Shown here: positions 4,851 through 33,818 of the stretch, piece after piece
Layout: each line of letters opens with the position of its first letter
Position numbering within the stretch: the first letter of the stretch is position 1
NCBI GenBank assembly: GCA_022822085.1
Contig: JAJECK010000077.1
Location: 1-50,711, forward strand
DNA from: Candidatus Poribacteria bacterium
GTDB lineage: Bacteria; Poribacteria; WGA-4E; WGA-3G
Direction of reading: 5' to 3'
DNA length: 50,711 nt
Program-made: the position numbers and the translations under genes
The notes under the pieces: generated by a model
Told to the model about the DNA's origin: nothing
Database searches by the model: none
The model's input: the letters and a program-made list of their open reading frames with translations, nothing else

Positions 4851-4989
4851 ATTATATGTGTCAAGTCCTTTTAAACGTGGGAAGAAAATAGGTTATGTCT
4901 GGTGTTGTTGCAGACAACATAACACATTCCATCAAATATCATATCTGTTTTCATATTCTCCTCTTCGTCTCATCACCCGATTCACTGCT

Positions 4990-7900
4990 ATGTTACTATC
5001 AATGATTACATTAGGTTTTTGGCGATGGATTATTTCTCTTGTCTTGTTGGTCCTATGTGTTGCTATTAATCCAGTACTTGCGGACAACGGTATCCGAATT
5101 GATACAGAGAAATCTACAATACTCCCTGAACAATCGGAAAGCGACCTAACACAAACTCCTACCCCACAACATACAACGAAGTCATTTAACTTTGCAGATG
5201 TCTACAAAATAGAACTCCATTTAGATATTCCCGGAAATATTAAAATAGTTGCCCTTGACAGTAACGTGGAAGTCAAAGACACCATTAGTGTTACACTTGA
5301 AAAACGGGTGCTTAACGAAAATCCAATTCTTACGAACATATACCTGGAAAACATCACGTTAACAAGCACACAAAAGGATGGTGTGCTTCAGTTGAATTCG
5401 CAGTTGCCTGAAGACACACCCAATCAAACAAGTAAAGAAACAGACATATCCGATACAAAAAATGATCTCCAATTGAACTATGAAATCAAAACACCACCAG
5501 ATATATCAGTTGACCTCAGTATTAAAGTTGGCGATATATACATTCATCACTTACGCGGTAAGATTAAAATTACCAATGAGTTAGGGAACGTCCATTTAGA
5601 TGAGACCACAGGAAACTATCAAGTGGAAACCTATAGCGGACGCATTCACGGACAGATATTATTGGCGACAGGGCAGAACGGGATAAAGACTCAAAACGGT
5701 TCAATTGACCTTTCTGTGCTTGACGAACTTGCAGCTCCACTTGATTTAACGGCATATGGTGGCAATATAAGGTTACTCCTTCCGAACAATTATCCTGCGG
5801 ATGTAGAATTAAACAGTGAGAAACGACAATATCTTATCAATCTTCCTTCGGAAATAGAGGATAACTTCGGAGTCATCAACGAGGGTGGTCCGTTGCTTCG
5901 CCTAACTGCAATGGATACGATCTCAATTCTACAGAACCCAAGATTAAAGAGCAAATCTGATGAAACTGAAAAGGAAGGTGAACAAGAAGTACTATCATCT
6001 GATGTTGAATTGTCTGTTCCATTTGTCACACAATCCCCAACAATTGATGGCAATTTATCCGAAATGCCTTGGCTATATTCAAATTCCCTCTCCGCCTTTC
6101 AGAATCCTGCGGGGACAGAACCTGTTGAAAACCAAACAGAAGTCTATCTAATATATGACGCAGATCACTTTTATGTCGGTGTTAGGGCATTCATACAGAG
6201 TTCGCAAGTACCACGTGTATCACAAACACAACTGGATTCGCCAATCTGGGAAGATGAGTCTATTGAAATTCTACTTGATATGGACCCAAAAACGGAAGCA
6301 TATTCGCATCTTATCATAAACCCAATTGGCGGGATGTTTGATCAAATGGTTACAAAAGTAGGGTTCCCAAATTTCCGATTTGCCCCACGTGGTGTGAAAA
6401 GAGAAAAACCTGATAAATCAGTAGTGCAATTCAAGGCGGATAGTTCATGGAATTCAAACGCAAAAGTTGCGACTAAAATCAACGCTAATTATTGGAGTTT
6501 GGAAGCAGCTATTCCACGTAAAACAAATAAAAAAGAAGGTGATGAAACTTGGCTCCTTAACGTCTTCCGCAATTCCCAATTGAAAAAAGATGTAGGCGAT
6601 GATATGAACCCAGTTGTACATCGTGAGTATAGTTACTGGTTGCCTATGTATGACGAGAAATATCCTTGGTGGCCACACTGGAAAGAAGGAATGGGAAAAT
6701 TAAAATTAGCCGAAAAACAACCATTCCCAAAATCGTTTGATGTGAGGGACAATTTCATAGTGAGTGCTATTGATATTGAAGGGAACAAAACTATTCCCCA
6801 TGATGTCTTGTTGGAGAAAATTCCGATCACAATTGGGGCTACGATTACAAACGAACAATTAACACGCTTGTTTTCTGAATTAGAAAACTGGGACTGGTTT
6901 GAGAAGGTAGAATTGAAGACGGCTGCTGTAGACTCAGGTGAAACTAATTCCACGAATGATAAGGATGCAACGAATAGTGTCGATAGCGCAAAAAATGAAA
7001 GCGTTCTGGAAAACGGACTGTTAAAAGTATCTGTGCAAATCAGTGTAACCGAAACACAGGTCCAATTTGCAGACAAAACAAAAATTCGCGGGAATAGAAG
7101 TTTTCCAGAACTATTCATCAAACGTTGGTTTGATCTATTTCCAGGTTATTATCCAGTTAAAAATATAAACCTGAAGCAGCAGATGATGCGCGATTTCTAT
7201 CTAAACCGTGGATTCTCTTTTGCTAAGGTAACCCACGAATATGCAAACGACCTGTTACAGTATAATATAAGCGAAGGGAGCATTGATGAAATTCGTTTTA
7301 CTGGCAATCACCGTATCCCAGAGGCTGTCCTAACTGCTGCGTTAGATTTGGATAGCGAAGGTATATATTTCCACTCTTTAGGACAAAACAAGATCAATAG
7401 CATGCAGAAAACACTGACAAAGAGTAACGATGCCTTCAAATCAATCGGGGATTGGCAGGCACAAAGAGAAGGTGGCAAAAATGTCTTGATTATAGATATA
7501 ATTGAACATCCATTTGTAAAATCCGGTTGGTTTCCAATAATTGGTTTCAACCGCGTTCATGGATTGGTCTTGGGCGCGGGGGGTAACCTCTCAACACATC
7601 TACTTAATGAAGAACATCTGTTCGGTTCTGTAAGTCTCGGTGTTTCAAGTCGGACTTTGAACTACCAAGTTGGTGCTGAAAACACCTTTTTCACTCGTTT
7701 CCCTTTGACTATTGGGATCGGCTCATTCAAGTTAACAAATAAAAGCATAAACGACTTTCGTAGACTACCCGCTGAATTCAGTCTGAGCGATTCATTTTAC
7801 GGCACTTCTATAGACCATTTCTATCAGAATCAAGGGGAACATATCTGGATTGCAAAGAAGTTTGGACAATCATCTCAATTGCGGCTTGAATGGACACATG

Positions 7901-8658
7901 AGAATCATGATAATTTATTCAAATCAACAGATTGGAGTTATTATAATAGAGGCAAAGTCAAACTCGGTAATCAACGGATAGAAACTGGTTCACAGAACAT
8001 CGTTTCATTACGATATACTTTTGATACACGAGATCATAAGTCTACGCTTGATGGGGCTGATAATCTTGCGAGTCAGATGATTCTAAGGCCTAATCCGCTC
8101 ACAAGGAAAGGTTGGAGAGGGAATATCGGATTAGAAATAGTTGGGGGACGTCTCGGCGGAGATTGGACATATAACACATACCATTTTGAATTGATACGAT
8201 ACACACCATTAATTGGAAAACATAACCTAAATGTTCGGATTCTTAGTGATTTCTCAGATGCACGATTACCAACACAACACCTGCTTTATCTTGGCGGGTT
8301 ACCGAATCTTCGTGGCTTTAGACACAACGCTTTTGCAGGGGATAAACGGTTTGTGCTGAATGTTGAACACCGATTTGTGGATATAACCTATATTGAAGGG
8401 TTTTCAGATGTATCACTCGGATGGGCACTCAGCACATTTATTGATGCTGGACAAGTATGGTGGCATGATGAAAACCCCTTTACCAATTTTTCTTTAAATG
8501 ATTTCAAACTATCTGCCGGTATTGGACTATCAATTTTTGTCCGTCCACCTGGTGTTAATTTGCCTCTAAACTCCGTGTTTGAATTTGCACTTCCACTCAA
8601 TGTAGAATCTTCGGCACGGAAACTCTTAGTTCTTTGGCGATTGGAACAGATGTTTTAA
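4990..8658 (+). CDS. DUF4097-like / CBM9-like / POTRA / Omp85 outer-membrane fusion protein
   Basis: A protein of 1222 residues from ATG 4990 (signal peptide ending near VLADNG). Approximate order: 77-290, beta-rich adhesin-like repeats of the DUF4097 type (GDIYIHHL, GNVHLDETTG, GRIHGQ); 347-576, a CBM9/DOMON-like domain (PTIDGNLSEMPW, YVGVRAF, DESIEILLDMD); about 584-841, three POTRA-like units (IDIEGNKTIP, IRGNRSFPEL, IRFTGNHRIP), the first interrupted by a Ser/Asn/Asp-rich linker; 843-1222, a 16-strand-type barrel with the loop-6 motif LRGF (Arg1108) and a terminal Phe as expected for a BAM recognition signal. Omp85 proteins insert or translocate proteins at the outer membrane; the two extra periplasmic or surface domains are not part of canonical BamA/TamA/FhaC. 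An in-frame GTG at 4858 would add 44 Cys-rich residues before the signal peptide and is rejected. It is a single gene without an evident operon. Confidence 0.85.
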   Translation: MLLSMITLGFWRWIISLVLLVLCVAINPVLADNGIRIDTEKSTILPEQSESDLTQTPTPQHTTKSFNFADVYKIELHLDIPGNIKIVALDSNVEVKDTISVTLEKRVLNENPILTNIYLENITLTSTQKDGVLQLNSQLPEDTPNQTSKETDISDTKNDLQLNYEIKTPPDISVDLSIKVGDIYIHHLRGKIKITNELGNVHLDETTGNYQVETYSGRIHGQILLATGQNGIKTQNGSIDLSVLDELAAPLDLTAYGGNIRLLLPNNYPADVELNSEKRQYLINLPSEIEDNFGVINEGGPLLRLTAMDTISILQNPRLKSKSDETEKEGEQEVLSSDVELSVPFVTQSPTIDGNLSEMPWLYSNSLSAFQNPAGTEPVENQTEVYLIYDADHFYVGVRAFIQSSQVPRVSQTQLDSPIWEDESIEILLDMDPKTEAYSHLIINPIGGMFDQMVTKVGFPNFRFAPRGVKREKPDKSVVQFKADSSWNSNAKVATKINANYWSLEAAIPRKTNKKEGDETWLLNVFRNSQLKKDVGDDMNPVVHREYSYWLPMYDEKYPWWPHWKEGMGKLKLAEKQPFPKSFDVRDNFIVSAIDIEGNKTIPHDVLLEKIPITIGATITNEQLTRLFSELENWDWFEKVELKTAAVDSGETNSTNDKDATNSVDSAKNESVLENGLLKVSVQISVTETQVQFADKTKIRGNRSFPELFIKRWFDLFPGYYPVKNINLKQQMMRDFYLNRGFSFAKVTHEYANDLLQYNISEGSIDEIRFTGNHRIPEAVLTAALDLDSEGIYFHSLGQNKINSMQKTLTKSNDAFKSIGDWQAQREGGKNVLIIDIIEHPFVKSGWFPIIGFNRVHGLVLGAGGNLSTHLLNEEHLFGSVSLGVSSRTLNYQVGAENTFFTRFPLTIGIGSFKLTNKSINDFRRLPAEFSLSDSFYGTSIDHFYQNQGEHIWIAKKFGQSSQLRLEWTHENHDNLFKSTDWSYYNRGKVKLGNQRIETGSQNIVSLRYTFDTRDHKSTLDGADNLASQMILRPNPLTRKGWRGNIGLEIVGGRLGGDWTYNTYHFELIRYTPLIGKHNLNVRILSDFSDARLPTQHLLYLGGLPNLRGFRHNAFAGDKRFVLNVEHRFVDITYIEGFSDVSLGWALSTFIDAGQVWWHDENPFTNFSLNDFKLSAGIGLSIFVRPPGVNLPLNSVFEFALPLNVESSARKLLVLWRLEQMF

Positions 8659-13470: not shown

Positions 13471-16400
13471 TCACGGTTGAATTCCTACCTTCTCAAACAT
13501 CAAATCTAAATACGATTTCTCATCATTGAAAAGGCGACTTGAGGAACCTTCTTCTTTTTTATCGTGCCAGTCCAAGCGTAGAATGTTATATGGCAACATA
13601 TTTTCTGTAATCCAGTTAACATCTTCTCCCTTTCCTAACTCAGAACTATCCCGCAATAAAAGAAATGAATCGAGTTGAAATCTCTGCTCCTGTTCGGTCT
13701 CTAACTTCTTTCCAAGTGTAATTAGCGTCTGATCCTCGGATTTTTGTGCAAGTTTCACCTTCGGATGTATCTTATAATCGCCTCTTGTCCCACCAATTAT
13801 CTCCCGCTCACCTTTAGGATCAATAAAGATTATACGTGTAATCTCTTGTTCTTTATCAAGCACCCATAACACAAAATCAGGATAATAACTTCCTGAATCA
13901 CTTTCCAAATAAATGCCAATCTTCTGAACATTCCGCATAAGATAGAATTCATACCTTTTGTTATGACTATAGTTGCGCTTAATATACTCTGTCAGATCTC
14001 CAACAAATTTCTTTTCGCCAATATTTAATCTATCTGGTGATACTTTTAAATCACGGTACATGCTTTCAACATCTTCCTGGGGAAGTATAAGCGGTTTGTA
14101 GATGTGTCGGTGTCCTGGTTCTAACAATCGTCCTAATTTTCGCCGCATCAATGCCTCGGGGTGTATACGTTCTGCCTTTGCTTTGTCAATTTCATTTTCT
14201 GCCTCTTTAATTTTCTCAAGAAACTCGTCATATTCATCTTGGGATTCAAACTCTTTCGTCACCGTATATTCATAGATCAAATCATCATAATTCAACGGTT
14301 CATAATCATAGTTTTCCTTATTGATATGCGCGTTAATACGGTTATGCAGTTTACGGGTAACATCAATCACTATTTGGCGATTGAGTCTGTCTGTCCACGC
14401 AATTGGGTCTGTCGCCTGTTTCCGATATTGAATTTCACCAACAAGTGGTAGGAAATCAGCAATAGTAGGTATGCCATTATCCTTACTAAAAAGTTGTAGC
14501 TGGTTTTTCTCTGCCTCACGATAAATTACGGATGCAAGTTTTGCCCTATTCAGATAGCATGCATACCTTTCATTATTTTGTCGCAGATCCACAGAAACAT
14601 CTGGTACGTCTCTTTCTTTATCCGTTCGGTAATCTAATGTCAACGCTCGCCAATTATTGATTGAACCATCTTCTTTTTTGCCATCCTCATAGTAGGTATA
14701 ATTAATTTCTTTTCCGTTGAGAATGACACGCTTATAGCCGCTTCCGTAAGTGTTACCCTGTTTAAAGATTGGTAATTTTTGCCGGTAGTCGTCAAATTTA
14801 ACTGACGTGTTCCCATTCACTTCAAATAACATTGGATTAACAGGGATCTTGAAAACGTGTTTTAAAGTGACTCCTCCTTTACGCACCTCATCAAGAAACT
14901 GTTCAAGGTAACTTCGTTTCAAACTATAAACGGTTAAGGTCTCCAATCTGCTGATATTGGATTCTTTACTGTTATCAAGTCCGTGGTAATCCTGTATATG
15001 ATCAATTTTCTGTCGTTTTCCATCACCACCTTTTCCACGTAGGCGGACACCACGCCCAAAAATCTGTATAATCAGATTACCCTTAGAACTTCCCAAATTA
15101 ATCAGACTGATTACGGATAGTCGGTAAGAATTCCACCCCTCAGCAAACTTACGACTTCCAATTAATACGTTTATCGGACAAGACTCGTCATCAAGGTTTT
15201 CAAATTGTAGTTTTGGATCTACGATTACCTCATCACGCGTATCAATACGGTCGTTTTCAATGCTGTTGAAGAAACTTGATGCATCCCCTACGTTAATCAT
15301 GCCCCATTTTTCTCCATCACCATAGGATAGTAAAAGTTCACTACTGTTTTCAGGATTACGTGCAACGACCAATCGTCCAATAATACTATTACCAAAAATG
15401 TGTCTGTACTTTTGACGTTCTACATCACTCAGTGCAGCAAAATAATCAAGCACTTTTTGAATATCAGAAACTTCGTCTTCTTCCCCTTCCTCTTTTGGAT
15501 TTTCGACCGTGTGTCCCATAAATGCCATTAAAGGGCGATGTGCAGTCAAATCACTGTCATATTCCTCATCATTTCGGACTATTTCGTAGGTTTGTAACTT
15601 TTCCTCCATGACTCCAAGACATTCGTCCAAATTGTCTTTAATTTCTCCCTCGGATTCAGCATCCACTATATCTGTTGCTATCGGCTTAAAGAAATGGTCT
15701 TTGCCATACCCATCACCATAAAATCGGGCATAATCATAACGGTAGATAATGGAATTATCGTACTCGTCCTTTATTTCTTTAGCCACATTGTGAAAGGTAG
15801 CTGAATACTCAAATAGAAAGGAGTTACGGACATTTAGGCGTGTACGGAGTTCTTTAAATTTACCCGCTTCTCCAGTTGTCAAGCCTATATGTGCTTCGTC
15901 TACTAAAATCAGTCTACGAATTTCTCCGCCATCTGGCAATTTGAAATAATCTTTATCTTTCTGTAAAAGCCCTTGTGTCGTATCAATTATGAGTTCAATT
16001 CTATTGTTATAGGTTTCGTTAAGTTGACGCACGTAGGGTTCCAATTCGCGTTCATGCTGCTTAATCAGATTTGCCAAAGGGGTTGTTAGGAAAATTTGAA
16101 GTCGGAGCCCATCATTTTTACAGAAATGATGTAAATACTGAAGAATGTTAAGATGCATGACGAGGGTTTTACCGCTCCCCGTCGCCATCCAATATGCCAA
16201 CATCCGCTGCTTGTTTTCACCGTTATCCAATTCAGACCCATTTGTGAGTGTGTAGTCAGCAAAGAACTGTTCCGTGAAAAGCAGTGCTAATACTTGAAAG
16301 TAACGGAGTCTAAAGGTGTTTTTTGTGAGGATATTATAATTATCAACGAAATCTTGTATCCGTTCTAAAGGTTCAACGGGAAGTCCTAAAACCTGTTCTG

Positions 16401-16497
16401 TATAATAATGCTCAATGTCCCATTTTATGCCGTCATTTGTTATGTCAATTCCGTTTTCGGTTAGGTTTTTTGCTGCGTATTCTTGATATAGTGCCAT
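13471..16497 (-). CDS. res: Type III restriction enzyme Res subunit (SF2 helicase plus PD-(D/E)XK nuclease)
   Basis: A 1008-residue protein. Walker A is MATGSGKT (residues 105-111), the Walker B box is VDEAH (DEAH 200-203), and motif VI is QIFGRGVRLRGKG. The C-terminal nuclease signature is YPDFVLW ... FIDPKGER near residues 870-893, matching P-D-x(n)-D-x-K. Res subunits translocate along DNA and cut only together with Mod at unmodified sites. The length fits Type III Res proteins (about 900-1000). It is the last gene of the minus-strand island mod-vapB-vapC-res, 42 bases after vapC. No frame damage is visible, so cleavage activity would depend on whether the mod gene is in frame. Confidence 0.85.
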   Translation of the reverse strand: MALYQEYAAKNLTENGIDITNDGIKWDIEHYYTEQVLGLPVEPLERIQDFVDNYNILTKNTFRLRYFQVLALLFTEQFFADYTLTNGSELDNGENKQRMLAYWMATGSGKTLVMHLNILQYLHHFCKNDGLRLQIFLTTPLANLIKQHERELEPYVRQLNETYNNRIELIIDTTQGLLQKDKDYFKLPDGGEIRRLILVDEAHIGLTTGEAGKFKELRTRLNVRNSFLFEYSATFHNVAKEIKDEYDNSIIYRYDYARFYGDGYGKDHFFKPIATDIVDAESEGEIKDNLDECLGVMEEKLQTYEIVRNDEEYDSDLTAHRPLMAFMGHTVENPKEEGEEDEVSDIQKVLDYFAALSDVERQKYRHIFGNSIIGRLVVARNPENSSELLLSYGDGEKWGMINVGDASSFFNSIENDRIDTRDEVIVDPKLQFENLDDESCPINVLIGSRKFAEGWNSYRLSVISLINLGSSKGNLIIQIFGRGVRLRGKGGDGKRQKIDHIQDYHGLDNSKESNISRLETLTVYSLKRSYLEQFLDEVRKGGVTLKHVFKIPVNPMLFEVNGNTSVKFDDYRQKLPIFKQGNTYGSGYKRVILNGKEINYTYYEDGKKEDGSINNWRALTLDYRTDKERDVPDVSVDLRQNNERYACYLNRAKLASVIYREAEKNQLQLFSKDNGIPTIADFLPLVGEIQYRKQATDPIAWTDRLNRQIVIDVTRKLHNRINAHINKENYDYEPLNYDDLIYEYTVTKEFESQDEYDEFLEKIKEAENEIDKAKAERIHPEALMRRKLGRLLEPGHRHIYKPLILPQEDVESMYRDLKVSPDRLNIGEKKFVGDLTEYIKRNYSHNKRYEFYLMRNVQKIGIYLESDSGSYYPDFVLWVLDKEQEITRIIFIDPKGEREIIGGTRGDYKIHPKVKLAQKSEDQTLITLGKKLETEQEQRFQLDSFLLLRDSSELGKGEDVNWITENMLPYNILRLDWHDKKEEGSSSRLFNDEKSYLDLMFEKVGIQP

Positions 16498-16539
16498 GGG
16501 TTCCTCTGGAAGGCATCGATCTAGGGCGGGGTCCTGGTC

Positions 16540-16935
16540 TTACCAACGTTCTGTCTGCAGAGATTCAACTTCATCAAAATGTGCATCTCGTGTAACGAGA
16601 GTTAGTCCATGCTGCATTGCGATTGCTGCGATCCATATATCATTATCCGGTATGGGACGACCTTTCCTCCGCAACTGATCTTTGATATTTCCGTACCATC
16701 GCGCGGTTTCTAAATCACAAGAGAAAAGTGGAAATCGTTGCGTGAGCCGGTTAACTTTCGCGAAATTTTCTGTAGGCCTACTCGATTTACACGCACCATA
16801 GCAAAGTTCACCAATAACGGGTGAACCCAGGAATATTTTATCTATATTTTGCATTTTCTCTTGGATCGCCTTGACCCCGGTAAACATTCCGATAATGATG
16901 TTGGTATCTAAAAGGTACTTACCATTCTGACTCAT
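16540..16935 (-). CDS. vapC: VapC-type PIN-domain toxin
   Basis: A 131-residue PIN-domain ribonuclease. The acidic catalytic residues are in place: Asp10 (LLDTNI), Glu43 (VIGELCYGA), Asp99 (IPDNDIWIAA) and Asp117 (VTRDAHF). VapC toxins cut tRNA or rRNA and are neutralised by the cognate antitoxin. The start overlaps the 3' end of the antitoxin gene by 17 bases, the usual VapBC coupling. It sits between the methyltransferase and restriction genes and is transcribed with them. Confidence 0.88.
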   Translation of the reverse strand: MSQNGKYLLDTNIIIGMFTGVKAIQEKMQNIDKIFLGSPVIGELCYGACKSSRPTENFAKVNRLTQRFPLFSCDLETARWYGNIKDQLRRKGRPIPDNDIWIAAIAMQHGLTLVTRDAHFDEVESLQTERW

Positions 16936-17149
16936 CTACCTGTCCACAGTCTTCCTCAATTGCCTGTTTTATTTCTTCCAAGTCTTCAGGCGGGAACAAG
17001 CCAACAAATTCAAGTAGTTCTTTACCAGAAATTCCTTTTGGAGATTCTCCTGACAACTCTAATGTGAAGTCTAAGACCTGTCTCTGTTGTCCAGGGGAAA
17101 GGTTTTCTAATCGCTGTACAATCTCTTGAATAGTGGTTGATTTTTCCAT
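16919..17149 (-). CDS. VapB-like antitoxin (DUF2281-like)
   Basis: A 76-residue acidic protein: an N-terminal helical segment (TTIQEIVQRLENLSPGQQRQVLDF) typical of DUF2281-type antitoxins, a middle KGISGKELLEFVGLFPPEDL, and an acidic tail (EEIKQAIEEDCGQVDESEW) suited to wrapping a PIN toxin. The start ATG 17149 has AAGGAG 9 bases upstream, better than the longer frame from 17236. It lies 96 bases after the methyltransferase stop. Confidence 0.75.
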   Translation of the reverse strand: MEKSTTIQEIVQRLENLSPGQQRQVLDFTLELSGESPKGISGKELLEFVGLFPPEDLEEIKQAIEEDCGQVDESEW

Positions 17150-17245
17150 TGTGTTGTCTCCTTTTGGTTGGAATATGACAAGGTTTTGCACTAAACGAAC
17201 TTCTCCAAGTTTATCATAAACTGTTATCAAAATCAATGCTTATTG

Positions 17246-20200
17246 CTAAGTCTCAACAGGATCCCACACAGACCCCGAGTCAAAATCCGAAGTCGTTATG
17301 ATATGAATTTTCTTAAGTTCCGAACTAACTTTTAGGTCATTCTTCTTGGCATCATGGTTAATGTCCAATTGCGTAACACCTTCTAACCTTTCATCACCAA
17401 GAATCTCCAGCAGCTGCGCTGTATCGTCCATTCCATCAGACACGTTACGAAATACAACTGCACGTTTACCGCTTAAGACAACCCGATAGACCCGATCCTC
17501 AAAATCAAACCGCAGCCACCGTTGAATTGGGAGTCCTTTGAGATAACAGTAAGTTTCTAACACGTCAACAAAACCTTCTGTGCTATCCTTGCCGTAAGTA
17601 ATCCGATTAGTAAACGGGGTGCTCAAATCCATCATCAACCGAATTTCCTGTTCCTCTGGCCGGTAGAGATATTGAATTGGAAGTTCTGCATCAGTGTCAC
17701 CGTTCAGTGGTTCGGTCGTGAGATTATTGAGGACATCTTCATACTGTTCCAGACGTTGATACTTGACGATGCCAACGGTACCGTCAATCTTCTTACTTTC
17801 ATCCGGTTTTCCATTTTTCCAATTTTCAGAAAACATAACGCGACGAATCCGTTCCTTCAAAGTGGTTTCAAAATAATCTCCCATCTCAACGAGAATGAAT
17901 TTTCGGTTTCCTGTTTCACTTTTGTTAAGAGTTCTCTTTTTACCCTTATTAAGATTGAGGATTGCGTGTCCTGTTGTACCACTCCCCGCAAAGAAGTCAA
18001 GAGTTATGCCTTTACCGTCCGGAATAGATGACCATATAAGATGTTCATACAAACCAACAGGATGGCAAAAAGGGAACGTTAATCCTAATACTTCTATTTG
18101 TTGTTTACCTTTTTCACCTGAAACTATGTGTGACGATAGTTCAACTACAATATGGTCTTTCAAATAGTATTTTCGTTGTGGCTGGGTTCTTTCATCAGGA
18201 CCAAAAGAGATTTCTTTTCTATCTAACAACCCTTGCATAAAGTCTGGAGTATTTCCCCAACCACTTTTAGGAACAGGACAAGGCTTATCTGTGATCGGAT
18301 GAATTAAAGGTTTGAAAAACTTGGGATCAGTTCGAAGTTCAGGTGCTCCCATATGGACGTTACGAAAAACCGAACCATTTACATCTATGTTAGAATATGC
18401 CCGATCACCTTCTGTAAATTCAATAGGTTTCTTAATCCAATTTTTAAATTCCTTACAACATTCCTCAGTTGGGCCGTTGTGCTTTTTTATTAATGCCGCT
18501 GATTTTTTAAGGATTACTTCTCTATTTTGACTATAGTATTGCAGTTTTATTTTACCTTTTGAACGACAAACTACGTATTCATGCTGACTAGGTATACGAT
18601 TTGCTCCACTTACAGGATTCCTTTTATCCCAAACAATAGTACCCTGATTTTGCATTCGCATCGCATTAAAAATGTGGAACAGATTTTTATATTCGTTTTC
18701 GTCAATATGACAAAGAAAGCAGCTATCGGGTGCCATCAACTGCTCGGCAAGGGATATGCGATTCTCCATCATTGTTAACCAACTGGAATGTCGATAATTG
18801 TTTTTGTATAGGAAATCCCTATTCATGGCGTTATATGGTGGATCAATGTGAACACATCTAATTGTACCGCGGTATTTTTCCATTAGTAGGTCCAACGCCT
18901 GAAAGTTTTCACTGCTCAGAAGCACACCATTAATTTGCTCTTCTAAATCGTCAAAAAGGGAAAGGAGAGAGTCTATAAATGACTCATCTTTTCTAAAATG
19001 TCGGGTATCCAAAGGCAATGTGCGGCATTCTTCAATAAACAAAGGTGGTTGTTCTTTAATATCAACACCGAAGGTATCTCGCCAGTCATCAAGTTGTGCA
19101 TCGTTCTCCAAAATTTTGGTAAAGATCTCTTCCCGTAGGTCAGTGTCATTTGTCGTTACTTCAGCAATTTTACCAATAGAGATAAGATAATCGGTAGAGA
19201 CAACCTTTTTCTTCATCAGGAAAAGCTGCTTTTGGAACGTTTCCACTGCTACAAGGAGGGCAATGACATCGTCGGTGACGTTACGAAATGCCGTCGCTAT
19301 TGCAAACGCAGGATTGTCAGAATTGAGATTGAGGAGTGTGTCTAAATCGCCAAGGATGGTGTTTTGAATGTAACGACGTTGCTCGGTCTTAAGGAATTTA
19401 TCTAAATCTTTATGGATAAAGTAGTCGGAATCCATGCCAACAAAGAAGGTGTTTAGGTTTTTATCGAAGGTATGAAATCTTTGGACTTTTGGACTGATTT
19501 CAAGTTTCGCCTGCCGCTCTGTTTTATTTTTACCAAGTTCCTTGAAGTCAAGGTGGGTTGCCAACTTCTCTGCGTATTTTGTCAAACTAACATTTAAAGT
19601 TTTAATGCCTTGTAATCTACCATCTCTGACCTTGTCATAAGTATTTGCCAAGTCTTTAAAGACCGGTTTCCCTTGTTCTTCATCTTTCTTTGCACTTTCA
19701 TGCAGATAGATACTGACATCGTCTGTCTCACCGAAAATCTGCGCGTTCATCTGACTGTACATCTCAACTTTCGGTGTTGATGTTTCTGCCAAGTGGAGTA
19801 TAACGTGCCATGTCTGTTCTGCATCTCCAGATTCGCTGGGGGGGGGGTGATTCTATCCAGCCGGTAGTGTTTGAAATCGTCTCGGTTACTGTTTTGTGCC
19901 ACAGAGGAATTTGTCTTTCCCTCTAACCGATATTCAATTCTTTTTCCTTCTACCTCAAATGCCACGCTATTGAAACCCGTTGCAGTTTTCACATAATAAC
20001 TGTCTCGACATTTCCAATGAAAAAGGACATCAGAACCGTTATAGTCAGTTTCATCTGGATAGTCCACCTTATATTGTGCTGTGCTCCTATCGTTATAGCC
20101 AAAGTCACCGTCTCGGTAATATCCTTCAAAAAAACTGTGGATGTGGTTATAGACCTTGAAAGCGAGTTGGGATTTGAGTTTGTCAGGGGCGGTTTTCAAT

Positions 20201-20553
20201 GGGGTAGCGAGTTCTTCCTTATCCTCAGACTGGAGAAATTCTATAAGTGTTTGTGCTTCTTCAGCAATGTTGTCAAGACATTCTCTAAGTCTTCTACTAC
20301 CATTTTCATTGACGTATTCTTTGACTTGTGTTAGTTGAGTTTCGTAAAGTTCCTTTGCTACATCTGTTAGGGCATCATCAACTATGGTTGTTAACTTTTC
20401 ATCTATGAATTGACTTACTTCTTCACGCTTGATTTTAAGGATACGGAAGATACCAAAGTCAAGATCGGAATGTGAAAATTGGAACATTTCACATAGTTTT
20501 TCACGGAGGGTGTTGAGTGCTTCAATTGTAGGATTTTTCTCATCTAATAACAT
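17246..20553 (-). CDS. mod: Type III-like adenine methyltransferase (Mod), out of frame at a C10 tract
   Basis: Two overlapping frames form one gene. The upstream part (20553 to 19747) ends as FEGYYRDGDFGYNDRST...YRLDRITPPP, then runs out of frame; the downstream part (to 17246) holds motif IV DPPYN (residue 317 counted from TTG 19792) and motif I FAGSGTT (residue 601), the order of beta-class N6-adenine enzymes. The frames meet at ten C's (19838-19847). Eleven or eight C's would join them without a stop through SESGDAEQTWHVILHL, giving about 1102 residues; with ten C's the product stops after about 268. The protein would give sequence specificity to Res. ATG 20553 is a safe start; TTG 20568 with a closer AAGGA is an alternative. 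The frame change could be phase variation or an assembly error. Confidence 0.8.
19838..19847. repeat. Poly-G/C tract (10 nt) inside mod
   Basis: Ten consecutive G's on the plus strand (C10 in the coding strand), read as ATC-ACC-CCC-CCC-CCA. Such a run is out of character for this AT-rich window, where I noticed no other comparable G/C homopolymer. It lies exactly where the two halves of mod change frame. Confidence 0.95.
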
Positions 20554-20635
20554 ATTTGAATTAACCAACTTTTCCTTTTAAAGTTTCAAATTTAACCGTA
20601 CATTGTCCATATTACCCAATACTATAAATCAAGAC

Positions 20636-29643: not shown

Positions 29644-30846
29644 ATGCTAAGTGTTGAAGAAGCAAGACAACAGATGTTAGAGACCATCCCTGTTTTGGGA
29701 ACTGAGAAGCGTGATATATTAGATTGTTCAGACTATGTCCTCGCTGAGCAATTAATTGCATCTGAAAACATACCTCCGTTTGACAATTCTGCGATGGATG
29801 GTTTTGCTGTCCGTTCTGAAGATGTGAAAAATGCATCCAATAATAAGCCAGCTGCGCTTTCAGTAGTTGAGACAATTGCTGCAGGGAATGCACCTCAAAA
29901 AAATGTTACAGTAGGACAAGCAGCACGGATTATGACTGGTGCAATGATGCCAGCGGGTGCAGATGCTGTGGTGATGCAGGAGGTAACCGAACTCAAGGGA
30001 GATAAGGTTACAATCTTAGATAGTGTTGAAAAAGATGAAAACGTTCGGTTTACTGGTGAAAGTGTAATGCAAGGGGATAGTGTTATGTCCGCCGGAAAGG
30101 TGCTTCGTCCTCCAGAAGTATCAATGCTTGCGTCACTCAATTGTGCCGAGGTATTAGTACATAGAAAACCCACCGTTGCTATTGTATCAACTGGAGATGA
30201 ACTGACACCTCTTGGGGAACCACTGACACCGGGGAAGATTCGTGATAGTAACAGATATGGTCTCTATGCACAGGTACAGAATGCTGGTGGTTTCCCAATT
30301 GATATGGGTATCGCACCTGACGATGAAGTTGAAACTGAACGTATATTCCTTGAATCTGTTGCTAAAGCAGATGCGCTCATCACAAGCGGTGGAGTTTCGG
30401 TAGGTGAGCACGATGTTGTTAAGAATGTCCTTATGAAACTGGGTGAGATGAACTTTTGGCGCGTCGCAATGAAACCCGGTAAACCCCAAGTTTATGGGAA
30501 AATTGATGGCAAACCAATCTTTGGTTTGCCCGGTAATCCTGTGTCTTCACTTGTAGTGTTTGAACTCTTTGTGCGACCTGCGCTTCTAAAGATGGCTGGA
30601 CACTCAGACCTCTTACGTCCAACTTTTAAAGCGGTATTGGAAGCAGATGTCACGAATAAAGATGGTCGTGTTAATTTTATGCGTGCGATACTCACAGAAC
30701 AAGATGGGCAATATACCGCCAAAACTACAGGTCCTCAAGGATCTGGGATCCTTCATTCTCTTGTGTTAGCAAACGGTTTAATCACAATTCCATCTGGTGC
30801 ATCCTTACGTGCGGGCGAAACAGTGGATGCGCAATTCTTGCACTAA
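29644..30846 (+). CDS. moeA: Molybdopterin molybdenumtransferase
   Basis: A 400-residue MoeA. Domain marks: PPFDNSAMDGFAVRS near residue 45, IMTGAMMPAGADAVVMQE, AIVSTGDEL, SGGVSVGEHD (MPT-binding loop) and GLPGNPVSSLVVFELF, followed by the C-terminal beta-barrel domain IV. It inserts molybdate into adenylylated molybdopterin, the last step of molybdenum cofactor synthesis. No other mo- genes are adjacent. It is followed 10 bases later by an alpha/beta hydrolase gene on the same strand. Confidence 0.93.
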   Translation: MLSVEEARQQMLETIPVLGTEKRDILDCSDYVLAEQLIASENIPPFDNSAMDGFAVRSEDVKNASNNKPAALSVVETIAAGNAPQKNVTVGQAARIMTGAMMPAGADAVVMQEVTELKGDKVTILDSVEKDENVRFTGESVMQGDSVMSAGKVLRPPEVSMLASLNCAEVLVHRKPTVAIVSTGDELTPLGEPLTPGKIRDSNRYGLYAQVQNAGGFPIDMGIAPDDEVETERIFLESVAKADALITSGGVSVGEHDVVKNVLMKLGEMNFWRVAMKPGKPQVYGKIDGKPIFGLPGNPVSSLVVFELFVRPALLKMAGHSDLLRPTFKAVLEADVTNKDGRVNFMRAILTEQDGQYTAKTTGPQGSGILHSLVLANGLITIPSGASLRAGETVDAQFLH

Positions 30847-30856
30847 ATTCAATGCT

Positions 30857-31591
30857 ATGTCCAAGATGTCGGACCTGAACACCTATTGGGGTGAGATGGC
30901 TTATTCCAATTCTGTTGGCACTGGTTATCCGCTACTTTTTTTACATGGAACAGGTTGTGACTCTATGGATTGGATGTCGGTGACTGATAAATTTCCGACT
31001 CATCTGGGTCATATTACTCTTGATTTTCGCGGACATGGTAAGAGTGCTGTACCTACCGAACCTTTCACAATAGACGACCTGGCAAACGATGTTATTCTTA
31101 TGATAGCATCAATCGGTATTCAAAGACTTATTCTCGTCGGACATAGTCTTGGCGGAATGGTTGCAATTTCAGTTGTCAATCGATGTCCGCAGGTTGCTGG
31201 TCTTGTTTTACTCGAAGGATGGACAAGTCTCTCATCTGCGGGAAGTGCCTTTGACGATAGGCGGTTTTACGGTTCACTTTCAGATGCAGAGATATCAGAA
31301 ATACAACAGAAATCCAATGTAACACGAAATCGGTTTAAGACTGATGTTTGGAATAGTTTTTGGAATTCTGTCAGAGAATTTGACGGGTATAGTTTTCTTG
31401 AAAATGCGTCAATTCCTATATTTGAAGTATTCGGTGAGATGGGAAAAAATGAATATACTGAACAGAAATTACGTATCCCACCTAACCCGAATATTCAAAT
31501 AATATGGGTGCCAAATGCAGGGCATTACCTACCACAGGAATGTCCAGCAGAAGTTGCTGATATATGCACTAATTTATTAGAAACAATATAA
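30857..31591 (+). CDS. Alpha/beta-hydrolase fold protein
   Basis: A 244-residue hydrolase. The oxyanion motif LLFLHGTGCDS, LDFRGHGKS, the nucleophile elbow GHSLGG and a terminal His in NAGHYLPQE define the family; the acid is probably in the strand EVFGEMGKNE. The substrate is unknown (ester, lactone or similar). I start at ATG 30857 (or 30866), since the longer frame from 30797 lies within moeA. It ends 3 bases before the convergent rhodanese stop. Confidence 0.8.
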   Translation: MSKMSDLNTYWGEMAYSNSVGTGYPLLFLHGTGCDSMDWMSVTDKFPTHLGHITLDFRGHGKSAVPTEPFTIDDLANDVILMIASIGIQRLILVGHSLGGMVAISVVNRCPQVAGLVLLEGWTSLSSAGSAFDDRRFYGSLSDAEISEIQQKSNVTRNRFKTDVWNSFWNSVREFDGYSFLENASIPIFEVFGEMGKNEYTEQKLRIPPNPNIQIIWVPNAGHYLPQECPAEVADICTNLLETI

Positions 31592-31593
31592 CG

Positions 31594-32427
31594 CTATTCT
31601 TCAGGAATTTCGACCGGCAAATCCAGCCGGTCACCCCATTCTTTCCAAGACCCAATATAGTTGCTAACCATCGTATAGCCGATGAGCCGCAATGCTAAAT
31701 AGGTCTGGGAAGAACGGTACCCACCCTGTCAGTAGCACATGACCTTTTTCTCATGTGTGATACCTGCATCTGCATACATTTTTTGGAGTTCATCAGCAGG
31801 TTTGAACGCTCCATTCTCATCAAGATTATTGACCCATTCTATGTGAATAGAACCCGGTATTGCCCCTGCGCGTTCAGCACGTGCTACTTTTCCAAAATGT
31901 TCGTCATCTGTACGTGTGTCAAGGCGGACGAAGTCATCTCTATTCAGGATATCATGTATGCTGTCAGCATCCATGTGCGTATTAAGGTTTGGATCTATAG
32001 GAAATTGTGGCACTTTAGGTGGTTCAACGCCATCTATGCTGACCGGACCATCCGCTGCTAACCATGCTTTGTAGCCACCATCCAATACACGAGATTTTGA
32101 ATGACCTAAGTATTCACAAAACCAAAATCCTCGTGAAGCATAGATACCAGAAATATCTTCATACCAAATTATAGTTTTTGAATGGTCGAGACCACGTTGT
32201 TGGAATAGATATGCTATCATCCACATAAATGGACCAAATGTCTGTTGACGAGTATCAATTAGACTTATACCAAATAAATCCAGATGAAGTGCCCCTGGAA
32301 TATGTCCTTTTATGTATTCATGTGTTGGACGTGTATCCACGATACAATATGAATCGTCATCAAGGTTGTTTCGCAACTCCTCTGTAGATATAACAAGTTC
32401 AGGATTAACATAACCTTTATATGCCAT
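31594..32427 (-). CDS. Two-domain rhodanese (sulfurtransferase) with probable selenocysteine at the active site
   Basis: Read through an in-frame UGA at 31729-31731, this is a 277-residue tandem rhodanese of the thiosulfate/3-mercaptopyruvate sulfurtransferase type. The N-domain (CIVDTRPTHEYIKGHIPGALHLDL) has no Cys at its loop (WYEDISGIYASRG). The C-domain (VRLDTRTDDEHFG, GAIPGSIHIEW) reaches its catalytic loop as VMCY-U233-QGGYRSSQT, where U233 stands exactly where rhodaneses have Cys (C-x-x-G-x-R). After the UGA the frame continues with a normal tail (LALRLIGYTMVSNYIGSWKE ... EIPEE) to a TAG at 31594. A plain nonsense mutation is the alternative. A MATE exporter gene lies 38 bases upstream on the same strand. 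Confidence 0.82.
31701..31727 (-). promoter_or_regulatory. Possible bacterial SECIS hairpin just after the UGA
   Basis: Starting 1 base after the UGA, the RNA can pair AGG/CCU, then U-GGG with CCC-A, across a small internal loop, closing an apical loop CCGUUC that holds a GU pair, the feature bacterial SelB recognises. The loop lies about 12-17 bases from the UGA, slightly closer than in the E. coli formate-dehydrogenase SECIS. Hand-folded only. Confidence 0.4.
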
Positions 32428-32465: not shown

Positions 32466-33818
32466 TTATATTGTTTTTATTCTTTTCCATATACCAGTTC
32501 TATACCAAATCCACATAGCAGCACCTTGCACTACATTAGACAGTGCTATACCGATCCACACACCAATCAGACCGATAAAATGTGATAATATAATCACAAG
32601 ACATAATCCTACTCCGATCTGTGCTACGAGTGTTATTATCATCGGTGATAAGGTATCACCTGCACCATTTAATGCTTTTCCCAATACTAAAGAAAATGCG
32701 ATAAATCCAAATGTCAGTGACAAAAATTGTAGATAGACAGCTCCAATTTTGATGACTTCTGAATCATCGGTGAAAATTCGTATAAACATCTGTGGTAAAA
32801 CGAGGAATAGGATACCGATGCCTGCCATGACCGAAGTGCCGACGATATTTCCTATTTTCGCAGAATCTTCAGCGCGGTCTATCTGATTTGCCCCTATGTT
32901 TTGTCCAACTAAAGGTGCAACAGAGTTTGCTATTCCGAATCCAGGATTCATAACAAGGATCCTTAACCGCATACAAATTGTGTATGCTGCAACGGCGAAT
33001 TTTCCATAAGGTCCTATCACCCATAAGAACCCGAGTCGGGACAGATGTCTCCAGAAACCTTGCATAGAACTAAATATCCCCAACCTAAATATGTCAAGCA
33101 TTTCCACAAGATCAGTCCGGAAGGGTACGTTCCGTAGAGAAATCGGTGCACGTCCACTGAAACAGAGAACAAGCAAAATTAGCACACCGATTCCTCTGCC
33201 TATGAGGGTTGCTAACGCAGAACCTGCGACACCGAGTTTAGGGAAAATCCATAATCCAAATATTAACATCGGATCGAGTCCAATGTTAATCAGAGTTGAG
33301 AATACTAACACTACCATAGGTGTAACGGCATCCCCACCTGCTCGGAAGATTGAACCGAGTGTCATAGATAGGAACATCGTGCTGATACCGACAAGTATAA
33401 TTTGCATGTAAGTTGTACCGAGTTTTATCACCTCTGGCTCTGTCATTCTGACAGAACGTAACCCAAATTCTGCTAAAGGGTATCCAATTATCGCGATACC
33501 GATAGCGAAGAAAATAGCAAGCAGGATAGCTTGCATGGCGACGTGTCCCGCTTGTGCGTAATTCCTTGCCCCCAGGTATTGTGCAACCAGTATCCCTGCC
33601 CCTGTTGAAATACCGAGGGAGAAAACTCCTATTAACCTCAGTAAATTCCCACTTACACCAACTGCAGCAATCGCAGCAGGTCCCAATCTTCCAACGAAAA
33701 TCATATCAACGATATTGAAAGCGTCTTGGAGAATATAGCCGCATGTAATTGGCACTGCAAGATTTATAAGATGTTTTAATAGATTTCCTTGAGTTAAATC
33801 ACCTCGTTTATTCTTCAT
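32466..33818 (-). CDS. MATE-family multidrug/metabolite exporter
   Basis: A 450-residue protein with 12 predicted membrane helices in two homologous halves. The N-terminal segment GNLLKHLINLAVPITCGYILQDAFNIVDMIFVGRLGP is the standard MATE opening; NPGFGIANSVAPLVGQNIGA in the second half is the conserved family block. MATE proteins use Na+ or H+ gradients to expel organic cations and other small molecules. AAGGAAATGA stands directly before the ATG. It is followed by the rhodanese gene on the same strand. Confidence 0.9.
   Translation of the reverse strand: MKNKRGDLTQGNLLKHLINLAVPITCGYILQDAFNIVDMIFVGRLGPAAIAAVGVSGNLLRLIGVFSLGISTGAGILVAQYLGARNYAQAGHVAMQAILLAIFFAIGIAIIGYPLAEFGLRSVRMTEPEVIKLGTTYMQIILVGISTMFLSMTLGSIFRAGGDAVTPMVVLVFSTLINIGLDPMLIFGLWIFPKLGVAGSALATLIGRGIGVLILLVLCFSGRAPISLRNVPFRTDLVEMLDIFRLGIFSSMQGFWRHLSRLGFLWVIGPYGKFAVAAYTICMRLRILVMNPGFGIANSVAPLVGQNIGANQIDRAEDSAKIGNIVGTSVMAGIGILFLVLPQMFIRIFTDDSEVIKIGAVYLQFLSLTFGFIAFSLVLGKALNGAGDTLSPMIITLVAQIGVGLCLVIILSHFIGLIGVWIGIALSNVVQGAAMWIWYRTGIWKRIKTI

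Follow-up and report, generated by a model that had tools for sequence, protein, structure and literature searches.

In a stretch of 50,711 nucleotides (nt) from a member of the sponge-associated Poribacteria (Candidatus Poribacteria bacterium, GenBank assembly GCA_022822085.1, contig JAJECK010000077.1, positions 1 to 50,711; the window), a rhodanese gene with an in-frame UGA codon was analyzed. Its product is almost certainly a selenoprotein with selenocysteine (Sec) at the catalytic position 233. The most complete explanation of the data, for which a probability of about 0.8 is estimated from comparative sequence and folding analyses, is a Sec rhodanese whose UGA would be decoded with the help of an extended, two-part selenocysteine insertion sequence (SECIS) containing a looped-out hairpin.

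Evidence for selenocysteine at the catalytic position

The minus-strand frame (32427-31594) encodes 277 residues and contains a sole TGA, which is codon 233 in the context VMCY-U-QGGYRS. Translation confirmed the original prediction, made from the sequence of the window, that 44 further codons follow up to a TAG. Without readthrough the open reading frame (ORF) is listed with 232 aa (translation table 11), and standard annotation therefore truncates the gene at residue 232, as had been expected. The genes proposed as a check, selA, selB, selD and tRNA-Sec, were all found in the source genome. The scores were 612 bits for selA (cut-off 268), 354 bits for selB (cut-off 242) and 367 bits for selD (cut-off 125), which has an in-frame TGA of its own; the tRNA-Sec carries a UCA anticodon and directly adjoins selB.

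An orthologue with exactly one TGA was identified in 58 of the 59 genomes of the family with 70-81% identity, the exception being G033 (81% complete). The same order contains 10 further TGA forms, of which one is a fragment, and three forms that lack the TGA. In the homologue alignment that had been suggested, 77 distinct genes of the rhodanese family have TGA in the catalytic column and eight relatives have TGC. Among public genomes, TGA forms outside the Poribacteria occur in records titled Latescibacterota, Gemmatimonadota and Nitrospinota, while the TGC forms belong to two Poribacteria records, Acidobacteria, Deltaproteobacteria and one unclassified bacterium. selB was above the cut-off in all 18 tested genomes with a TGA form. 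Among 26 genomes of distant relatives, 24 had a selB above the cut-off, and the remaining two are those of the Cys-form members L126 and L127. The ratio of nonsynonymous to synonymous substitution rates (dN/dS) was equally low upstream (0.056) and downstream (0.054) of the UGA. The inference of Sec insertion is thus supported by the conserved UGA, the Sec machinery and purifying selection past the UGA.

Two other explanations of the UGA were considered. A reassignment of UGA to Trp, Gly or another residue would equally account for its being read through, and is very improbable: several genes of the window still terminate at TGA, each family member has a single TGA that always takes the place of the catalytic Cys, the one further in-frame TGA that was examined corresponds to the known Sec site of SelD, and tRNA-Sec, selA, selB and selD are all present. 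A nonsense mutation, a sequencing error or a pseudogene would fit a single stop codon in a single gene. This is refuted by the comparison and has a negligible probability, since the identical TGA recurs throughout the family and in further phyla, the sequence beyond it remains under purifying selection, and no additional disabling changes were found. The original prediction that the UGA is not a chance nonsense codon was therefore borne out.

Conserved RNA structure downstream of the UGA

Positions in the RNA are counted with the U of the UGA as 0. For the structural analysis, 77 Sec genes were compared with seven Cys homologues. RNAalifold, applied to the 77 genes and separately to 53 genes, returned the same consensus unaided, namely a long-range helix (H1) and a downstream hairpin (H3; hairpin B). 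H1 comprises 8 base pairs (bp), is formed in 77 of 77 Sec genes (99.8% paired) and closes a region of 82 nt, termed hairpin A. The 7-bp hairpin H3 is formed in 75 of 77. The coordinates are given in Table 1.

Table 1. Coordinates of the rhodanese gene and of the predicted RNA elements in the window (nt, position relative to the U of the UGA)
Feature	Window position	nt	Strand	Basis
Two-domain rhodanese (SseA/COG2897-like sulfurtransferase), predicted selenoprotein gene	31594..32427		minus	277 residues, Sec at 233; translation, PF00581, AlphaFold
In-frame UGA, predicted Sec codon at the catalytic-loop position (U-Q-G-G-Y-R)	31729..31731		minus	Translation, family alignment
Proximal 7-bp hairpin with triloop	31711..31727	4-20	minus	6.85/7 pairs in 62 Poribacteria genes vs 4.35 by synonymous resampling
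H1 5' arm CCGYUCYU	31710..31717	14-21	minus	RNAalifold, alignment
H1 3' arm ARGARUGG	31636..31643	88-95	minus	Core in minimum-energy fold of 77/77 Sec genes; covarying 17x92, 20x89
Hairpin A, 82 nt closed by H1, folded lengthwise	31636..31717	14-95	minus	Synonymous resampling
Hairpin B (H3), 7-bp stem, invariant loop UGGANNU; proposed SelB-binding SECIS hairpin	31612..31632	99-119	minus	Folding, covariation, resampling

Within the Sec genes, 98.7% of the H1 and H3 alignment cells are paired, 30 cells show double changes, and the covariation exceeded that of all 500 shuffles. In the Cys homologues only 64.8% of these cells are paired. Minimum-energy folding agrees with this: the H3 core was recovered in 75 of 77 Sec genes and the H1 core in all of them, and neither core in any of the seven Cys homologues. 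Covariation in H1 couples CGC/CGU with GAG/GAA and UCU/UCC with AAA/AAG. The H3 stem occurs in the compensatory variants GACCGGC/GCCGGUC, GAUCGGC/GCCGAUC and GAUAGGC/GCCUAUC, with the loop UGGANNU throughout.

Codon resampling resulted in z-scores of 13.8 (Poribacteria), 6.9 (other phyla) and 1.7 (Cys homologues) for H1 and of 17.6, 5.8 and 1.1, respectively, for H3. The interior of H1 also folded better than expected from synonymous resampling, with mean z-scores of -3.4 (Poribacteria), -1.6 (other phyla) and +0.3 (Cys homologues). A helix within hairpin A (38-42/67-71) is 93% paired with many breaks and was retained only as a possible part. The loop codon at residue 268 is CTG (Leu) in 77 of 77 Sec genes, whereas this residue is H, E, T, A, D or L in the Cys homologues, which indicates that the constraint acts on the RNA.

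Outside the sample used to define the structure, both helices were present in five of five unseen Sec genes and both were lost in the unseen Cys gene L216. With a covariance model for H3, each Sec relative searched gave a single match, located at the rhodanese gene, and the Cys-form genomes G109 and G110 gave none. A model covering hairpin B alone revealed no second gene carrying the hairpin, the other matches being at or near chance level. No Rfam family was found at the element. Taken together, these comparisons make a conserved, Sec-linked RNA structure reaching to nt 119 very probable.

Search for a SECIS at the standard position

Zhang and Gladyshev's model of the bacterial SECIS (bSECIS), as described in PMC13188914, requires a stem of 4-16 bp and a loop of 3-9 nt that has a G in the first two positions and is located 16-37 nt from the UGA. 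No conserved hairpin with a loop in this interval could be identified among the 77 Sec genes, and in single-sequence folding the first 52 nt past the UGA folded no better than shuffled sequences (z 0.85). When RNAalifold was confined to 75 nt, the proximal hairpin was its sole result. Both of these folding windows mislead, as the element reaches as far as nt 119. The proposed inspection of the 60 bases after the UGA consequently yielded no conserved standard SECIS, the extended element being found instead. The synonymous codons flanking the UGA are fixed (TAC 62/62, TCT 62/62), and the window around nt 99 is much more stable than codon resampling permits (z about -25). These two observations place the signal elsewhere than in the standard interval.

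A proposed two-part SECIS and competing interpretations

Apart from its spacing, hairpin B conforms to the bSECIS rules, and hairpin A covers 82 nt of the intervening sequence. Hairpin A is therefore interpreted as a looped-out insert and hairpin B as the probable SelB site, an assignment based on comparative data. Subtracting the 82 nt of hairpin A from the raw distance of 103 nt between the UGA and the hairpin B loop would leave about 21 nt as the effective spacing, which is within 16-37 nt. According to this model, SelB and tRNA-Sec would insert Sec at the UGA under the direction of a two-part SECIS located within the terminal 120 nt of the coding region. Closed by H1, hairpin A would start about 11 nt past the UGA, which would be approximately the mRNA entry site of the ribosome when the UGA occupies the A site. 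Hairpin B would follow after 3 nt and offer SelB a loop of 7 nt whose positions 2 and 3 are GG. Both the binding of SelB to hairpin B and the actual insertion of Sec are inferred. In more general terms, it is rather likely that a bacterial SECIS can be split: a long-range helix would loop out 82 nt of coding sequence and thereby bring a SelB hairpin situated about 100 nt past the UGA within working distance.

Two other assignments of the SelB site were weighed against this arrangement. The SECIS could be the proximal hairpin, an ordinary local signal, with the distal structure serving mRNA stability, pausing or translational control. The strong conservation of this hairpin in the Poribacteria fits such a role, as does the usual location of bacterial SECIS elements immediately downstream of the UGA (PMC13188914). 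However, its triloop lacks a conserved G and lies 8 nt from the UGA, in disagreement with the loop and spacing rules, and it would be situated inside the ribosomal mRNA channel with the UGA in the A site. It is also weaker outside the Poribacteria (6.07 of 7 pairs), whereas the distal hairpin agrees with the loop and stem rules and is lost together with Sec. A local signal is accordingly considered unlikely. A slightly smaller chance is given to a SelB site at the tip of hairpin A, in the apical GGNUAY loop about 49 nt past the UGA, with hairpin B as an accessory. Hairpin A starts 11 nt past the UGA, and its tip is often a G-containing loop near nt 52 in minimum-energy folds, but the Gly-Tyr behind this loop is also retained by the Cys homologues, and hence no RNA-specific constraint is apparent. 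Moreover, the loop differs between folds, some sequences form two loops, and the invariant, RNA-constrained loop belongs to hairpin B.

Several points weigh against the two-part SECIS. The raw spacing of 103 nt is outside the range of the bSECIS model (PMC13188914). The 3' arm of the proximal hairpin is the 5' arm of H1, and hence the two structures are mutually exclusive; as both are conserved in the Poribacteria, either could be the active conformer. The proximal hairpin is probably an alternative or transient conformer, which may form before the ribosome arrives. The same genomes contain an ordinary selD SECIS, which makes the displaced form gene-specific. Each site shows few compensatory events that are phylogenetically independent, although all of them are concordant, the z-scores are inflated by related sequences, and most of the genomes are metagenome-assembled.

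Evolution of the Sec and Cys forms

In a tree built with the catalytic column masked, the Sec clade is nested inside the Cys homologues, and the Sec/Cys label requires four changes overall, three of them within the rhodanese family. Given the outgroup, the simplest reading would be one gain of Sec, after which L114/L117 and, in a separate event, L120 reverted to Cys. L120 (3001-3816) is a Cys form nested in the Sec clade, and its genome has selB. It keeps H1, while H3 is broken by a mismatch, and it apparently represents a recent Sec-to-Cys reversion. L216, which is outside the tree, is 66% identical to the Sec gene L116 from the same phylum group and has lost both RNA helices; judged from its sequence, it is probably another Cys reversion. 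Natural Cys revertants in which the structure is lost provide a ready comparison set.

Properties of the rhodanese and other features of the window

PF00581 matches the protein at 125 bits in two stretches, consistent with a two-domain layout; the predicted nucleophile lies in the C-terminal active loop. The AlphaFold model has a mean predicted local distance difference test (pLDDT) score of 92.6, and the top match in the PDB found by Foldseek is Mycobacterium CysA3/Rv3117. Position 233 is the sole Cys/Sec column that is invariant among 23 diverse family members. The original prediction had stated that the N-terminal domain lacks a Cys; this does not hold for the domain as a whole, which contains C28 and C104, but its active-loop position is indeed without Cys. 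By analogy to other rhodaneses, U233 would act as the catalytic nucleophile, attacking a sulfane-sulfur donor and carrying the sulfur as a Se-S intermediate.

The active-loop signatures of the subtypes are CRKGV for thiosulfate sulfurtransferases and CG[ST]GV for mercaptopyruvate sulfurtransferases (MST), and the loop UQGGYR fits neither of them. The NCBIfam MST model gave 104.7 bits, below its cut-off of 250. Likewise below their curated cut-offs were the models for rhodanese-related (seleno)proteins (NF041203; 35.9 bits, cut-off 115) and for the rhodanese/DsbD selenoprotein TsoB (NF045694; 21.3 bits, cut-off 805). A Cys paralogue with a CRIGER loop and 32% identity is present in the same genome, so the Sec enzyme is not simply a substitute for the Cys enzyme. 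No relative was found in viral_contigs.

A MATE-type transporter gene is located upstream (32466-33818) and an alpha/beta hydrolase and MoeA are encoded downstream (29644-31591); these neighbours are conserved only among the closer Poribacteria. Elsewhere in the window, the region 13471-20568 resembles a type III restriction-modification cluster, in which the methylase region is divided between two ORFs (17246-19792 and 19747-20568) that overlap and lie in different frames, possibly because of a frameshift. An ORF of 1266 aa at 4858-8658 combines, by eye, a CBM9-like sugar-binding region with a POTRA/Omp85-like outer-membrane sequence.

Comparison with known systems

A selenoprotein of the rhodanese-related COG2897 (SseA-type) was predicted in 2005 from the Sargasso Sea metagenome by Cys/UGA pairing (PMC1088965), and a "rhodanese-like form 4" with the motif UxxG is tabulated in PMC13188914 and PMC9312934. 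The two-domain SseA-type annotation is shared, UxxG fits the UQGG found here, and Cys homologues are widespread. Compared by motif and annotation only, the Poribacteria rhodanese and the Sargasso Sea selenoprotein (AACY01016424, MCY3690685.1) probably constitute one family. The Sec rhodanese itself is therefore a further member of an already reported kind. In contrast, those papers put the SECIS immediately downstream of the UGA, as for all families.

A literature search, with most subscription papers outside its reach, found no paper joining Poribacteria and selenoproteins and none describing a long-range bacterial SECIS. Within the literature searched, the split long-range SECIS is undescribed so far. 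If it is correct, the spacing rule of the bacterial SECIS would refer to a three-dimensional distance and not to nucleotides. SECIS predictors would then need to include long-range helices, models that scan only 16-37 nt would miss such genes, and some selenoproteins with an "atypical SECIS" may find an explanation. Judging by record titles, Sec rhodaneses span several phyla (Poribacteria, Latescibacterota, Gemmatimonadota, Nitrospinota).

Hairpin B agrees with the bSECIS model (PMC13188914) in its stem of 7 bp and in its loop of 7 nt, where one of the first two bases is a G and another G comes next. It differs in that its loop is 103 nt from the UGA; hairpin A would have to be looped out to bring the distance down to about 21 nt. 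The selD gene of the source genome (L021; G000:C140:29818-30744) is a selenoprotein gene itself (CAG-U-AS) and has a SECIS with the loop CGGGU 16 nt past the UGA; its relatives show the compensatory stem changes GCUC/GAGC and GAUC/GAUC. A hairpin, a loop containing GG and compensatory stem changes are thus common to selD and the rhodanese element, but the selD SECIS is at the standard position and no distal element was found for it.

Two further two-domain rhodaneses, L135 and L136, come from genomes in a phylum-level search around G081 (record titled Deltaproteobacteria) and carry the UGA at the identical catalytic position (YUQSGVRS and YUHSGVRS). They belong to a separate branch with about 37-39% identity to the Cys query L127 and have an ordinary SECIS-like hairpin about 24 nt past the UGA. 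The standard SECIS in selD and in L135/L136 indicates that the displaced arrangement is specific to the rhodanese gene family and not a property of the whole machinery of these organisms.

At the protein level, the fold and the two-domain layout are shared with Mycobacterium CysA2/CysA3 and SseA, the Thermus rhodanese and Azotobacter RhdA (phmmer 5e-39; Foldseek E 3e-23). These thiosulfate sulfurtransferases have a Cys nucleophile and another active loop (CRIGER in CysA3 compared to UQGGYR in the Poribacteria protein).
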